NCBI RefSeq assembly: GCF_001403635.1
Contig: NZ_LN879468.1
Coordinates: 620,001-684,000, forward strand
Direction: 5' to 3'
From: Clostridium massiliamazoniense
GTDB lineage: Bacteria; Bacillota; Clostridia; Clostridiales; Clostridiaceae
Length of the DNA: 64,000 nt
Shown here one piece after another: positions 857-60,754 of this stretch (position 1 is the stretch's first letter; every line of letters starts with the position of its first letter). The position numbers and the translations under genes were made by a program. The notes beneath the pieces are model-generated. The model was not told the DNA's origin and searched no databases. It saw only the letters and a program-made list of their open reading frames with translations.

Positions 857-1708
857 TTGTTTAAATCAAAAAAAATTTTCTATTTTATTTTTTCTCTACT
901 TATATTTATATTATTGATAACTACAAACAACTTTTTTTCAAAAAGAAATTATATAAAAAATTTAAAGGTCCATTATATAGATGTAGGACAAGGAGATGCA
1001 ACTTTAATAGAGTATCTTGACAAGAAAATTTTAATTGATTGTGGACCTAATTCAAATGAATCTAACTTACTTAAATACCTAAGTGGTTTAAATATAAACA
1101 AGATAGATTATATCTTTATAACTCATCCTCATGAAGATCATATAGGTAATTTAGATAAAATTATAGCTAACTATAAAGTCACTTCTATATTTATGCCTAA
1201 AGTAAATTTTGAAAGTGAAGATTTATCTAAATCATTATCTTTAATAAAAAATAAAAATATAACTTTATATAATTTAAATAAAGATTTTAAAATAAAATTT
1301 GATGAAAACTTCTATTTAGAGATTTTCTCATCTTCAAAAAAAAATTATGAAAATATAAATAACTTTTCTCCTTTGATTAAAGTTATTTTTAAAAAAGATA
1401 GCTTTTTATTCACTGGTGATAATGAAGAGCTTGGTGAATTAGAATTTATTAATAAAGATATTAATGTTGATATTTTAAAGGTAGGGCATCATGGAAGTAA
1501 TACTTCATCCACTAATATATTTTTAGAAAAAGTTTCTCCTAAAATTTCAATAATATCTTGTGGCAAAAATAATTCATTTAATCATCCTAATCCTAAAGTT
1601 TTAGAGAGATTAAATAAACTCAATAATAAAATTTACAGAACTGATGAAGATGGAACTATTATAATTAATTCCTATGGAAAATCAATAATAGAAATAGAAA
1701 AAAAGTAA
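857..1708 (+). CDS. ComEC/Rec2-type metallo-beta-lactamase-fold hydrolase, membrane-anchored or secreted
   Basis: Residues about 5-24 form one hydrophobic segment (signal anchor or signal peptide). A metallo-beta-lactamase fold follows: YIDVGQGDAT, then the metal-binding motif THPHEDHIGN near residue 93, FTGDNEE, and VGHHGSNTSS. These are hallmarks of the ComEC C-terminal hydrolase family, whose stand-alone members are thought to act on nucleic acid or phosphodiesters outside the membrane. At about 283 residues it lacks the ComEC channel domain, so it is not a full competence protein. The start is probably TTG at 857, because AAAGGAGGTG (841-850) lies at proper spacing; a GTG at 848 overlaps that ribosome binding site and is unlikely. 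A terminator follows at once. Confidence 0.8.
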   Translation: MFKSKKIFYFIFSLLIFILLITTNNFFSKRNYIKNLKVHYIDVGQGDATLIEYLDKKILIDCGPNSNESNLLKYLSGLNINKIDYIFITHPHEDHIGNLDKIIANYKVTSIFMPKVNFESEDLSKSLSLIKNKNITLYNLNKDFKIKFDENFYLEIFSSSKKNYENINNFSPLIKVIFKKDSFLFTGDNEELGELEFINKDINVDILKVGHHGSNTSSTNIFLEKVSPKISIISCGKNNSFNHPNPKVLERLNKLNNKIYRTDEDGTIIINSYGKSIIEIEKK

Positions 1709-1738
1709 GCACTAATATTATCTGTGCTTACTTTTTTT
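1699..1738. terminator. Bidirectional intrinsic terminator
   Basis: Inverted repeat AAGTAAGCAC / GTGCTTACTT with flanking A and T runs on both sides. It lies between the convergent hydrolase gene (+) and the nuclease gene (-), overlaps the ends of both, and can serve both. Confidence 0.85.
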
Positions 1739-4908: not shown

Positions 4909-6598
4909 ACATTTCCTCTACTACCTCTACACCTATTAATGCTAATGAATTTTTAATAACTTGAGCTGCTGCCTCTATTAATTTTAATCTAGCAACCTTT
5001 AGTCCTTGATCCTCAACATTTAATACTGTATGTGCATTGTAGAACTTATTAAAGTTTTTAGCAACTTCAACTGCATATCTAGTAACAATTGAAGGCTCTA
5101 ATTTATCTATAGCATTTAATACTACATTATTAAAATCTTCTAATGATTTTGCTAATTCAAATTCTTCCTTTGAATTTAACTTACTATAATCTGCATTTCC
5201 TTCAACTTTCCCAGCTTTTCTTATAATACTTTTTGCTCTTGCATAAGCATATTGTACATATGGTGCTGTTTCACCATCAAAACTAAGCATTTCTTTCCAG
5301 TTAAATACAATATCTTTTTCTCTAGAATTTTTTAAATAAGTAAATATAATTGCTCCAATTCCGATTTTCTTAGCAACTTCTTCTTTATTTTCAAGATTTG
5401 GATTTTTTTCTTCTATTAATGATTTTGCATTTTCTACAGCTTCTCTTAATAAATCCTCTAATAATACAACGTCACCTTTTCTTGTTGATAACTTTTTATC
5501 TGCAAATTTAACTGTTCCAAAAGGTATATGAATGCAATCTTTAGCCCATTCTTTTCCTGCTAATTCTAAACTCTTAAATACTTGTTTAAAATGTAATATT
5601 TGGTCTTTACCAACAACATATATACATTTTTCAAAATTATAATGTTCTTTTCTATAAATTGCTGCTGTTAAATCTCTAGTTGCGTATATTGATGCTCCAT
5701 CTGATTTAACAACTATACATGGTGGCATGTTATACTCATCTAGCATTACAACCTTAGCTCCATTACTTTCTGTAAGTATGCCCTTGCTATCTAATTCATT
5801 TATAACAGCATCCATTTTATCATTGTAGAAGCTTTCTCCAGCCCATGAATCAAAATCTACACCTAATATTTCATAAATCTTATTAAACTCTTTTAAAGAT
5901 AAATCTTTAAATCTATTCCATAAAGCTGTTTCTTCTTCTTCACCATCTTCTAATCTCTTAAAGTACATTCTACCTTCTTCAACTAAAGATTCATCTTTAT
6001 CTGCTTCATCGTGGAATTTAACATATATTCTTAAAAGTTCTTTTATTGGATCTTTTTCTAAAGCTTCTTCATTTCCCCATCTCTTATAAGCTGATATTAA
6101 TTTTCCGAATTGAGTTCCCCAGTCTCCTAAGTGATTTATTCTTATTGGATTATACCCTTCAAACTTATACATTTTATATAATGCATTACCAATGGCTGTA
6201 GTAAATAAATGTCCTACATGGAATGGTTTAGCTATATTAGGTGATGAATACTCAACAACTATATTTTTATTTTCTCCTACTTGAGATGCCCCATAGGAAT
6301 CCCCTTCACTTAATACTTTGTTTATTATGGATTGGCTAAATGATGATTTATCTAAAAAGAAATTTACATATGGTCCTAAAACTTCAATTTTTTCAAAACC
6401 ATCCTTGTTTATTTTCTCTGATAATTCTTGTGAAATCATATTTGGTGCTTTTCTCATAACCTTAGCAAGTTGGAAACAAGGAAAAGCATAATCCCCCATT
6501 TCTGGTTTAGGAGGTACTTCTAAAAGTCCTTCTATTTTCTCTACTTCTAAGTCAACATATTCTTTTATTCTTTCTGCAATATTTTTTTTATAATCCAT
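4907..6598 (-). CDS. argS: Arginyl-tRNA synthetase
   Basis: Class I synthetase of 563 residues, normal for the family. Visible parts are the N-terminal tRNA-recognition domain (residues 1-100, [15 protein letters not shown]), the HIGH-type signature [16 protein letters not shown] near residue 118, the catalytic fold with [11 protein letters not shown], the KMSK-equivalent [11 protein letters not shown] near residue 365, and a DALR anticodon-binding domain at the C-terminus. It charges tRNA-Arg in the cytosol. The start ATG 6598 has AGGAGG. Expression is controlled by the T-box leader just upstream, which is followed by this gene alone. Confidence 0.97.
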
Positions 6599-6625: not shown

Positions 6626-6881
6626 AAAAATCCGTCTCTTATTCTTAAAATAAGAGACGGACTATTATCCGCGGTACCACTCTAATTGATATTAAAATCC
6701 ACCTTATATAAGTTAACGCTATAATGCGACTATCTTACTTTTTAAAAAAATTTCTTCAGATAGCATCTCATAGGCTCTTTTCAAATATTATTTCTTACAG
6801 AACTCACACCAACTTCTGCTCGCTTAAAGAAATTTAAAATATTTTACTTTTCCTAATCATAGATTTTTATTCTTAAATTGT
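6626..6881 (-). promoter_or_regulatory. T-box riboswitch leader of argS (predicted specifier AGA, arginine)
   Basis: The leader carries the T-box sequence AGAGTGGTACCGCGG (complement of 6669-6683), which in the antiterminator pairs with uncharged tRNA. A terminator of about 14 base pairs follows (GTCCGTCTCTTATT with its complement and a T run, 6626-6662). Stem I has the typical distal arm AGCGAGCAGAAGTTGGTG. In its lower internal loop an AGA triplet (6776-6778) sits directly before the closing strand GCCTA that pairs with TAGG; AGA is an arginine codon and fits the downstream gene. The T-box motif and terminator are seen directly; the specifier placement is inferred. Confidence 0.92.
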
Positions 6882-57417: not shown

Positions 57418-58950
57418 TTGCAATTAACAGTTTTCGACTTTACTAGCGAAAGCATTCAGCTACTTAATGAGTTAAAAAAAGACTTAAATGAATGTGCAGC
57501 CATTCTTGATGAATTCTTTTTTAACCTATTGGAAAATAACTGTGATGGTTTTTTTAATATATCAACTAGGGTAAAATCATCATTAAGCTTAAAAGAAAAA
57601 ATAATAAGAAATAATTACTACCTTTCTTATAATACTTCTCAGGAGCTTTTTAATAACTTATCAGATTTAATAGGAGTAAGAATAGAATGCAGATTTATAG
57701 AAGATGAAGAAGCTATTTTAAGATTTATAAAATCTAAGTTCATTCATTTAAATAGAAATAATTTTAATTACTGCACAAAAAATACCAATATTTGTTTAGA
57801 TTTAAAAGTAGAACAACCCTCAAAACAGAAAAATGGATTTGAACTCTATAGAATAGATGGGTACATAGAAAATAATGGCTTCAAATTTAACTTTGAATTA
57901 CAAATAAAATCTATGGTTAATCTTTTTTGGAGTGAAATTGAACATAAAATAATTTATAAAAACTATAATATGGTTCTTGGTGATAAATTTTATAAAAACA
58001 TATTAAACTCAATAAAAAACAATCTATCAATGATAGATAATCAACTTCTTACTATTTATGAACATATGAATAAAATTAATACAGAAGAGCAATTTATAAA
58101 AAGAGAACAACTAGAAGCTCTATTATCTAAAATGATATTTGATCTTTATGCTGCTAAAGTAAAAGAAGATTTAGGAGTATCTATAGATTTTAGAAATGCA
58201 TGTGACATAATAGTTGATTATATATTTTTAAAAAGTACTTGTGATGGTCCTCAATCCTATTACGATACCTTTATTAAAACTTCTATAAGGTTAAATGAAA
58301 TTTTTAAAAATGATATCTCATTTAGGACACCTATAAGTATAGATAAAAAACTAGAATTAAATTCTGATTTTTCTTATACTGTTGGAAATAGATTGCTTGA
58401 ATTAATGAATAACGACTTTCACTGGAATTTATTTTTCAAAATTTTATTTGAAATAGAACCTGGAGATCACTTTGAAGATTTTCAAAATTTTATAAAATAT
58501 TTAGAAAATATATTTTCTAATAGAAAAAGTTATTTTAATTTATACTTGAGATTTGATAGGGATAAAGTTGAACTTATTAAAGGTCATTTTTTAGCCTCTA
58601 TTTGCAATGCTTTTCTTTCTGTAAATTCCATAGAATTTATATATAGAGATAAACTTTTAGAAATATATGAAGTTTTAGATGATCATTGTAAATTCGTATT
58701 TGATGAAATCCCTACCTTTGAACATTATGAACTTTACGGTGAAATTTATTCACAATTTTTATATCTAAAGATTCTTTCAGTTTTCAATACCGCTATTAAT
58801 GTTCCTATAGCCTTTGACTTTGTTGAAAATCTTAAGGCCTCAAAAAGTAAACTTAAAATAACATCTCGTGGTGTTAACTATGTAACATCTCTAGATAAAG
58901 AAAAAGCAGTTGTAAGTACAAAACTTTTAAAATATATTTATGTACGATAA
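57418..58950 (+). CDS. RelA/SpoT-domain protein with long C-terminal extension
   Basis: Residues about 40-215 match the RelA/SpoT (p)ppGpp synthetase fold: ISTRVKSSLSLKEKI, LSDLIGVRIECRFIEDEE (the D-x-x-G-x-R motif), and FNFELQIKSMVNLFWSEIEHKIIYK (E-x-Q ... W-x-E-I-E-H). The G-loop that normally reads NGYxSxH is NGFELYR here, with the stacking Tyr replaced by Phe and the Ser and His lost, and the Arg of ExQIR is Lys. The remaining 295 residues are helical and match no family I know. The start is TTG 57418 with AAAGGTGGGG. It is probably a regulator or an altered synthetase; synthesis of (p)ppGpp is uncertain. Confidence 0.75.
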   Translation: MQLTVFDFTSESIQLLNELKKDLNECAAILDEFFFNLLENNCDGFFNISTRVKSSLSLKEKIIRNNYYLSYNTSQELFNNLSDLIGVRIECRFIEDEEAILRFIKSKFIHLNRNNFNYCTKNTNICLDLKVEQPSKQKNGFELYRIDGYIENNGFKFNFELQIKSMVNLFWSEIEHKIIYKNYNMVLGDKFYKNILNSIKNNLSMIDNQLLTIYEHMNKINTEEQFIKREQLEALLSKMIFDLYAAKVKEDLGVSIDFRNACDIIVDYIFLKSTCDGPQSYYDTFIKTSIRLNEIFKNDISFRTPISIDKKLELNSDFSYTVGNRLLELMNNDFHWNLFFKILFEIEPGDHFEDFQNFIKYLENIFSNRKSYFNLYLRFDRDKVELIKGHFLASICNAFLSVNSIEFIYRDKLLEIYEVLDDHCKFVFDEIPTFEHYELYGEIYSQFLYLKILSVFNTAINVPIAFDFVENLKASKSKLKITSRGVNYVTSLDKEKAVVSTKLLKYIYVR

Positions 58951-58964
58951 TAAGTAATAAAAAT

Positions 58965-59267
58965 GGTTCTGTATCAAATCAACAACTTAATTTATATTAC
59001 TTTTATAAATATATTTTTTTATCTGCCGAGATAGCTATATAGGTACAAAATGCTGTGACCATTGAACTAGTATTGGAAGCTCTTTATTTTTGAACAATAG
59101 TTTCGTTAAAAAATTTCCATTGTTTGAACAAAGTGAGTTTGGAAATTTTAGAAACTGTTGTAGAAAAAATATTAGAGCTTCTTTGCGTAGGTGAGTGGTC
59201 ACAAATGGTGAACCTATATAGCTAAATAAAAGGCAGAGAGGATGTATCTGTAATTTGATACACCCCC
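58965..59267. repeat. 300-bp nested inverted-repeat element (MITE-like)
   Basis: Ends GGTTCTGTATCAAAT (58965-58979) and the complement of ATTTGATACACCCCC (59253-59267) match at 12 of 15 positions. Inside, 59023-59236 folds into one long hairpin of successive arms: CTGCC/GGCAG, TAGCTATATAGGT/ACCTATATAGCTA (13 bp exact), GTGACCA/TGGTCAC, GAAGCTCT/AGAGCTTC, ACAATAGTTTC/GAAACTGTTGT, AAATTTCCA/TGGAAATTT, with the palindrome TTGTTTGAACAA at the tip. It encodes no protein. It could be a miniature transposable element or a structured RNA. Confidence 0.75.
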
Positions 59268-59274
59268 TTTTTTT
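59240..59274 (+). terminator. Terminator at the right end of the inverted-repeat element
   Basis: GGATGTATC pairs with GATACACCC (one mismatch), loop TGTAATTT-like, followed by a seven-T run. It could end the RelA/SpoT-domain transcript. Confidence 0.7.
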
Positions 59275-60754
59275 ATTTCATTTTACTTAAATCTACTTTG
59301 TTATATTGTTTTAAAAAGTTTCTTAAATCTTCAAGGGCTTCTTTATGTCCATTCTCATTATTTGACTCTATATTTATAGCAAATAGAGGTTCATGTAATG
59401 ATAATCTAATTAAAAACCACCCATTAGGAAAGTAAACCTTAATACCTTCAAAATTATTTTCTGCTAAAGACCAATCTTCCTTTACTCCTACTAATTTTTC
59501 TAAATCCTTTAAAATTTCTTCTCCATATCCCTTAAAATCTGATGAATTTATTGGAAGTCTAAAATCTTTACTTTCCTTAGGATATTCTAAACTTTCTATA
59601 AGACTTATAAAATCTTTTCCTTCCTTATTCATATTAGCCATTTTTATTAATAACTTTGCTATTAAGTAAGCTCCATCATCTAAAAAGTAATTTTCTTTTA
59701 TGGCAGCATGTCCTGAAGTTTCAATTGCTAAATGACTTTCTTCACCTAGACTATTTAATCTTATAGCCTCATTTATGACGTTTTTATATCCTCTTTTAAA
59801 TCTATGATGTTTTCCACCTAAATCCTCAATAAACTTTTTTAACCCATCTGATGTTACAGAATCTGTCACTATAGTTGAGCCTGGATATTCCTCTAAAACT
59901 ATAGCTGATATCATAGCTATTAAAGCATTTTTATTTATTTGAGAACCATCTTTACTTACTATAGCTGCTCTATCTACATCTGTATCAAAAATTATTCCCA
60001 AATCTGCCTTACTATTTAAAACAGCTTTACTTATGGATTCCATTGCCTTAGGATCTTCTGGATTAGGAATATGATTAGGGAAATTTCCATCAGGTTCTAA
60101 AAATTGACTTCCCTCTGTATCTGCACCAAGTTTATTCAAAACTTTGTCTACAAAAAAACCACCTGCTCCATTTCCAGCATCAACTATTATTCTTAACCCT
60201 TCTAGAGGCTTTTCCTTCTTAATTTTACTTGTACCTTCTTTTATTTTTTCAACTAATAAATTGCTATAATCATCTATTAAATTTATCTTCTCAAGCTTTC
60301 CATTTTTATTTAGTTCCTCAGTAATATCTGCTAATTCTATTATTCTTGCAATATCTTCTTTCTCACATCCACCATTTTTAGTGAAAAATTTCATACCATT
60401 ATAATAATATGGTAAATGGCTTGCTGTAATCATTACAGCTCCAGTACATTTATACTTCTCCATAATAGTTGTCATAAACATAGCTGGAGTAGTAGCCAAT
60501 CCACAATCATAAATTGTAATATTATACTTACTAAGTTCTTCTATACAGCTATTTTTTAAACTTTCTCCTGATAATCTAGAATCACAACCTATAGCTATAG
60601 ATATATCTCCATCATTTTCTTCTTTAAGCCATAAGAAAAAACCTTTTATTAATCTTCTTACCTCTTTGTCACTAAGACTAGGATCCATTCCATCATATTT
60701 TATAGCTGTCCCTCTTATATCTGTACCACTTTGTAACTTTTTTAAATTACTCAT
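59273..60754 (-). CDS. Phosphoglucomutase/phosphomannomutase family protein
   Basis: The 493-residue alpha-D-phosphohexomutase shows GTDIRGTAI at the N-terminus, the phosphoserine loop AVMITASHLPYYYNGMKFF near residue 115, the metal loop IIFDTDVDRAAIVSKDG near residue 255, the sugar loop EESHLAIETSGHAA near residue 340, and a C-terminal phosphate-binding domain. It interconverts hexose 1- and 6-phosphates. Preference for glucose or mannose cannot be read off. Start ATG 60754 with AAGGAGA. The inverted-repeat element sits directly after its stop codon. Confidence 0.88.
   Translation of the reverse strand: MSNLKKLQSGTDIRGTAIKYDGMDPSLSDKEVRRLIKGFFLWLKEENDGDISIAIGCDSRLSGESLKNSCIEELSKYNITIYDCGLATTPAMFMTTIMEKYKCTGAVMITASHLPYYYNGMKFFTKNGGCEKEDIARIIELADITEELNKNGKLEKINLIDDYSNLLVEKIKEGTSKIKKEKPLEGLRIIVDAGNGAGGFFVDKVLNKLGADTEGSQFLEPDGNFPNHIPNPEDPKAMESISKAVLNSKADLGIIFDTDVDRAAIVSKDGSQINKNALIAMISAIVLEEYPGSTIVTDSVTSDGLKKFIEDLGGKHHRFKRGYKNVINEAIRLNSLGEESHLAIETSGHAAIKENYFLDDGAYLIAKLLIKMANMNKEGKDFISLIESLEYPKESKDFRLPINSSDFKGYGEEILKDLEKLVGVKEDWSLAENNFEGIKVYFPNGWFLIRLSLHEPLFAINIESNNENGHKEALEDLRNFLKQYNKVDLSKMK

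Follow-up and report, generated by a model that had tools for sequence, protein, structure and literature searches.

MITEs, such as Correia/NEMIS and bcr1, are non-coding, palindromic, multicopy sequences that carry terminal inverted repeats. The subterminal hairpins of IS200/IS605 are short, lie within a transposase-bearing element, and present conserved unpaired bases as a possible protein handle. REP and BIME sequences are described as high-copy intergenic palindromes that form inverted pairs and mosaics and lie mostly downstream of genes, some of them near stop codons (PMC3733652, PMC12306157). According to work cited in the second of these reports, E. coli REPs at most 15 nt from a stop codon can lower translation (PMC12306157). 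The stem-loop families tabulated in a further report include Clop-1 of C. perfringens (93 nt) and Clot-1 of C. tetani (74 nt) (PMC2267715).

The hairpin studied here, one copy of which lies in a 64,000-nt stretch of the Clostridium massiliamazoniense genome (the window), resembles REP/BIME in being high-copy, extragenic, and palindromic, in forming inverted pairs and mosaics, and in lying 3' of genes. However, REPs are 20–40 bp long and tagged at the foot with GTAG or CGTC, whereas the Clostridia hairpin measures 108–340 nt and is conserved at its tip, which bears a GTTAA bulge; its ends carry TAGAA or TAAAAGG and then ATATTACGAC in Clostridium pascui (genome G007) and its sister G099. Unlike REP/BIME with RAYT, it showed no general RAYT dependence. 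Like MITEs, the hairpin is non-coding, palindromic, and multicopy and has terminal inverted repeats, but conservation does not lie in its ends, a parent IS was not seen, and it tends to abut stop codons. It shares with the IS200/IS605 hairpins conserved unpaired bases that are a possible protein handle, but a transposase-flanking unit was not established for it at 15 Y1 loci of five genomes or in genome G238. It is, like Clop-1 and Clot-1, an intergenic stem-loop family in Clostridium; by listed size, those two are smaller.

The window copy (58965–59267, 303 nt) had the sequence and position given in the first-pass annotation and occupied the gap between two convergent genes (Table 1). Pfam agreed with the annotated neighbors, a RelA/SpoT-domain gene and a phosphohexomutase gene, and no ORF of at least 60 aa lay between them, in line with the claimed lack of coding capacity. 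The outer ends, GGTTCTGTATCAAAT (58965–58979) against the complement of ATTTGATACACCCCC (59253–59267), were read directly and agreed at 12 of 15 positions, and the symmetry extended further, to 21 nt. The right "terminal repeat" has a second possible partner, because 59237–59268 folds into a terminator-like hairpin of its own on the minus strand. The annotated long hairpin, 13-bp exact arm (also scored as a 16-nt version at 94% by the inverted-repeat search), and palindromic tip (TTGTTTGAACAA, 59120–59131) were all present. The folding energy was −101.8 kcal/mol on the plus strand (z −9.31) and −90.6 kcal/mol on the minus strand (z −10.90), and none of 100 dinucleotide shuffles was as good on either strand. 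The hexomutase stop codon adjoins the element as annotated: it touches the outer arm, and the inner hairpin as measured ends 48 nt from it. The window copy may limit read-through into the antisense strand of each gene.

Table 1. Positions of the hairpin copy, its parts, and the adjoining stop codons, counted from the first nucleotide of the window.
Feature	Position	Strand	Basis
TAA stop codon of the RelA/SpoT-domain gene (57418–58950, +)	58948–58950	+	ORF list; Pfam PF04607; 8 nt before left outer arm
Left outer arm, 21 nt, 81% complementary to 59253–59273	58959–58979		Inverted-repeat search
13-bp exact arm, left side, TAGCTATATAGGT	59032–59044		Sequence, fold, inverted-repeat search
Conserved core of the hairpin family	59089–59177	+	Covariance-model match of 92.8 bits (window is 1 of 20 seeds); blastn about 59060–59190
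Unpaired GTTAA, nearly invariant, facing a single A (59150)	59105–59109	+	Core alignment
10-bp inner stem, 5' side, AAAATTTCCA, variable among genomes with compensatory changes	59110–59119	+	Covariation count
Conserved apex, TTGTTTGA-AC-AAA-GT-GAGTT	59120–59139	+	Core alignment
10-bp inner stem, 3' side, TGGAAATTTT	59140–59149	+	Covariation count
13-bp exact arm, right side, ACCTATATAGCTA	59212–59224		Sequence, fold, inverted-repeat search
Terminator-like hairpin, 12 pairs (5 G-C), hexomutase side	59237–59268	−	T tract after it on the plus strand
Right outer arm, pairs with 58959–58979	59253–59273		Inverted-repeat search
TAA stop codon of the phosphohexomutase gene (59273–60754, −)	59273–59275	−	Sequence, ORF list, Pfam; directly at right-arm end

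The conserved core was examined in an alignment of 20 cores out of 23, taken from diverse genomes and subfamilies; L097 and L103 were dropped because the wrong tip had been picked, and L089 was left out. The core consists of an outer stem, an unpaired GTTAA opposite a single A, a variable 10-bp stem, TTGTTTGA, a mini-stem with its loop, and GAGTT. The apex follows the pattern TTGTTTGA-RC-loop-GY-GAGTT, with a mini-stem of two pairs (G-C or A-T, then C-G) and a short loop. Pairing was kept in 88.2% of the 434 core cells and fell to 33–55% in slid controls. The compensatory changes that the first-pass annotation proposed to look for were found: both sides had changed in 18 of 22 core pairs, and double-change cells numbered 82, against 24.7 in shuffles, with none of 500 shuffles as high. 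The annotation had named single-copy occurrence without compensation as the outcome that would speak against it; the element proved to be multicopy and compensated.

Relatives of the window copy were searched for in three sets of genomes. In seven genomes, blastn with the window element gave 29 matches in C. pascui, nearly all in the inner 130 nt (about 59060–59190); core matches also occurred in G004, G005, and G006 (Haloimpatiens lingqiaonensis), and G003 matched only the AT-rich left-arm sequence. Against 206 genomes of the C. pascui family, with three candidates per genome scored, the best match had an E value of 1.7e-20. Here, 58 genomes reached an E value of 0.001, many of the matches covering the AT-rich left arm only, and about 17 genomes matched in the core by reading. 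The covariance model built from the 20 cores found the core in 83 of the same 206 genomes, with at most 21 candidates per genome scored. In a sample of 391 genomes from across the class it found the core in 22, of which 7 also belonged to the set of 206. The other 369 genomes of the class sample gave nothing, and the model is therefore selective. The score of the window copy under this model is not independent evidence, because the window is a seed; the blastn matches are independent. Named carriers were C. pascui, C. folliculivorans, C. brassicae, C. thailandense, and H. lingqiaonensis. Plasmid and phage records gave no match to the window element, plasmid records gave none to the L270 hairpin or the composite form of C. 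pascui described below, and viral contigs gave 0 matches to one exact tip pattern. The many copies that the annotation proposed to look for were found by both blastn and the covariance model, which supports its reading in so far as the element is dispersed, non-coding, and palindromic.

Of 21 loci matched by blastn, 20 folded into a long hairpin around the same tip, and L103 was weak. The hairpins were 108–340 nt long, most of them 190–340 nt. Among the 21 folded loci, the arms outside the tip differed between hairpin subfamilies. The terminal repeats were alike within one genome or between sister species and different between genomes. Conserved ends, which the first-pass annotation proposed to look for, were thus limited to one genome or sister species; across genomes the tip is kept and the ends differ, which is the reverse of a classical MITE. 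The hairpin family is defined by its tip and not by its ends. Two copies had unusual arms. L257 (G141, 1371–1709, minus strand) is a near-perfect 339-nt palindrome with a score far above the other measured copies. At L114 (G165, about 1423–1615), about 16 nt spanning the end of the neighboring predicted ORF, stop codon included, are mirrored in the far arm. Arms reaching into coding sequence were also considered at L278, L270, and L253 and did not hold up; only L114 was convincing.

The element lies mostly at gene 3' ends, and the stop codon of the gene frequently forms the first bases of the element end. On the 780-kb contig C2 of C. pascui, 24 of 26 places had no overlap with predicted ORFs. 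Ten of these 26 places fall within 55 kb (329000–384000), and the first 320 kb of the contig has only two short ones. In C. pascui and G099, the first triplet of the outer end is often the stop codon of the neighboring gene. This was counted by hand for ORFs of at least 100 codons whose end fell between −68 and +17 relative to the repeat core. At the outer ends on C2, the stop codon was the first triplet (−5 or −7) in 10 of 15 cases, lay within 8 nt in 13, and was further away in 2. At the remaining loci of the two genomes, partly the same sites, the corresponding counts were 19/39 and 25/39. A profile scan was made of 10 of 11 abutted proteins chosen. Six were full-length (395/396, 376/376, 203/204, 204/208, 297/303, and EAL 236/236), and their genes are not truncated, because the match runs to the last position of the family profile or close to it; the other four (two without a family, two with partial matches only) were uninformative on length.

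The orientation of the neighboring genes was analyzed at 53 unique loci, 18 of them from H. lingqiaonensis, with the duplicates L255 = L280 and L082 = L281 counted once. The gene 3' of the GTTTGA strand faced the hairpin in 39 of 52 cases (p 0.00041) and the gene on the opposite side in 29 of 44 (p 0.049); both sides thus show a preference for gene 3' ends. Proximity, by contrast, was one-sided: 3' of the GTTTGA strand, a stop codon lay within 30 nt in 27 of 39 cases, versus 5 of 29 on the other side (p 2.4e-5). Without H. lingqiaonensis, the facing count was 27/35, and stop codons within 30 nt numbered 15/27 versus 5/23 (p 0.021); the orientation effect outside this genome is real but moderate. 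In the window, it is the hexomutase gene that lies 3' of the GTTTGA strand and faces the hairpin. The exact position at the first triplet in C. pascui and G099 favors targeting over selection as a possible origin of the stop-codon placement.

C. pascui and G099 are about 94–95% identical over long stretches, and some of their copies are arranged as inverted pairs, about 750 nt long in all, in which hairpins A and B enclose a spacer that measures about 300 nt and contains small hairpins. This paired form was read at 9 of the 26 places on C2; it and the stop-codon placement go beyond the first-pass annotation. A composite query gave 106 matches in C. pascui, 122 in G098, and 116 in G099, whole and partial matches and cross-hits between the two hairpins included. 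Further genomes gave 40 (H. lingqiaonensis), 37 (G148), 9 (G117), 7 (G118), and 0 (G022) matches, pieces and cross-hits counted. The spacer sequence GGGCTGATAAGCCCGCAGACCGATAGGTC was found again in H. lingqiaonensis, which belongs to another genus. One core structure is common to many genomes, where it is dispersed in multiple copies, partly as inverted pairs around a conserved spacer. One composite copy (C2:344142–344746 in L193, and L234 at about 2400–2960) is interrupted by sequence that contains a 116-aa ORF.

The 18 copies in H. lingqiaonensis were 95.3–100% identical (mean 97.6%). None of 136 testable copy pairs shared 3' flanks (153 pairs in total; the contig of L282 ends at the hairpin). 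These near-identical copies with unrelated 3' flanks therefore indicate recent dispersal. Many of them shared a mosaic over hundreds of nt on the 5' side, so the mobile unit in this genome is larger than the hairpin. In the regions compared between G099 and C. pascui, 26 of 39 places were alignable, and by count the C. pascui gap was at least 200 nt, with room for some form of the element, in 22 of these and shorter in 4. Because most of the alignable G099 places were matched by such a gap, movement there is slow. One site held a composite in G099 and a solo hairpin in C. pascui. The empty sites proposed in the first-pass annotation did not appear in clean form in this comparison, where the differences came with altered flanks, and a target-site duplication was not established at the outer ends or in the site comparison of the two genomes. 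By reading, TA stood at most outer ends and was missing at some. For the window copy, no relative was close enough for an empty-site comparison, the best hexomutase identity being 64%.

These results suggested that the hairpin family is probably a non-autonomous mobile palindromic element, similar to REP/BIME in behavior and several times larger. A transposase or recombinase acting in trans would bind the conserved tip, that is, the GTTAA bulge and the apex, as a handle, probably on a single-stranded hairpin. Such a handle would account for the constraint on the tip and for the drift of arms that stay paired. The placement at stop codons would arise by targeting, and selection against copies that land in promoters and genes may reinforce it.

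The first alternative is a structured RNA at mRNA 3' ends, a transcribed 3' untranslated region that would act on the stability, termination, or translation of the abutted gene. The location at gene 3' ends and the compensatory changes in the core fit this explanation, and the effect of E. coli REPs on translation, cited above, offers a precedent (PMC12306157). Strand asymmetry was used to examine it. In the core, mismatch pairs on the window plus strand were 25 G-U versus 7 A-C, or 14 versus 7 without one pair, an excess that leans towards RNA. However, the G-U-leaning strand is antisense to the most closely abutted gene, and the outer arms had no strand bias: isolated mismatches were 24 G-T versus 20 A-C (p 0.65) in a strand-neutral alignment in which 30 of 42 loci were scored and 12, the window included, fell under the score limit. 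Another count over mixed, partly related copies, which includes the badly aligned L087 and omits L101, gave 102 G-U and 142 A-C. The lack of strand bias makes the outer arms look like DNA palindromes, and the core may be read as either single-stranded DNA or RNA. The structured-RNA option of the first-pass annotation therefore found support in the core (covariation and G-U lean) but not in the outer arms. Recent near-identical copies beside unrelated genes also indicate dispersal and not a gene-specific regulator, and the hairpin had no bacterial Rfam match at the gathering score. The loose-threshold Rfam matches (miRNA, snoRNA/scaRNA, lncRNA region, and sRNA AfaR) were weak and of chance type, all below gathering scores, and the only gathering-score matches were T-boxes elsewhere. 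In the window, the sole match of this kind was a T-box leader at 6650–6869 (minus strand, 123 bits). An RNA function is, on balance, unlikely as the explanation of the family.

A classical MITE, moved by a DDE transposase acting on the terminal inverted repeats, is less likely still. The family is non-coding and multicopy, it has terminal inverted repeats, and most outer ends in C. pascui and G099 carry TA; to this extent the MITE idea of the first-pass annotation stood, together with the dispersal and the palindromic form. The idea was not supported by the ends, which vary between genomes while the tip is conserved and lack TA in some cases, or by an autonomous partner. No autonomous IS with shared ends was seen in the sequence examined, in a search that covered Y1 transposases and the neighbor genes. 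The neighbor genes compared contained no recurrent protein family beside the copies, save one three-genome cluster.

Y1 transposases were considered as mobilizers. Y1_Tnp occurred in 161 of the 206 genomes and was absent from some carriers (G022, G025, G049, G410, and G406). Only 1 of 15 Y1 loci in five genomes was near a copy, namely L240 of C. pascui, where about 1 kb separates the copy from a Y1 ORF that carries an in-frame stop. RAYT/Y1 was rejected as a general mobilizer, being not recurrent beside copies and absent from some carriers. Among the Y1 transposases and neighbor genes covered, no mobilizer could be tied to the family. In G238, L308 (5560–7360) is a mosaic of GTAG-tagged palindromes in which a 160-aa Y1-transposase ORF (6097–6579, minus strand), with a Pfam match at the same place, lies between two cores; this ORF is more likely explained by the surrounding GTAG-tagged palindromes. 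Integron attC sites, suggested by the stop codons in the ends, were also rejected, since the inverted motifs stand in the opposite order to those of attC.

A more specific form of the mobile palindromic element can be imagined, in which a selfish palindrome inherits only its tip. An enzyme would read the GTTAA-bulged apex on single-stranded DNA, template switching would rebuild the arms from adjacent DNA, and integration would be aimed at stop codons. Template switching would explain the unrelated well-paired arms, the 339-nt copy of G141, and the arm of G165 that mirrors a gene end; this scheme is speculative and rather improbable as a whole. Finally, the window element includes a terminator-like hairpin and lies between convergent genes, but that it is merely an ordinary bidirectional terminator or a chance AT-rich palindrome is very improbable: z scores of −9 to −11 speak against it, and for the core it is refuted by relatives at an E value of 1.7e-20 and by covariation.

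A description of the family was absent from the literature searched, which included few subscription papers and preprints. The hairpins, probably mobile palindromic elements, would add to the Clostridia a widespread repeat family, undescribed in that literature, that is defined by a conserved apex instead of its ends. The tip is a concrete target in the search for a protein that binds or moves the hairpin, and the copies are a natural test of how structures beside stop codons affect genes.
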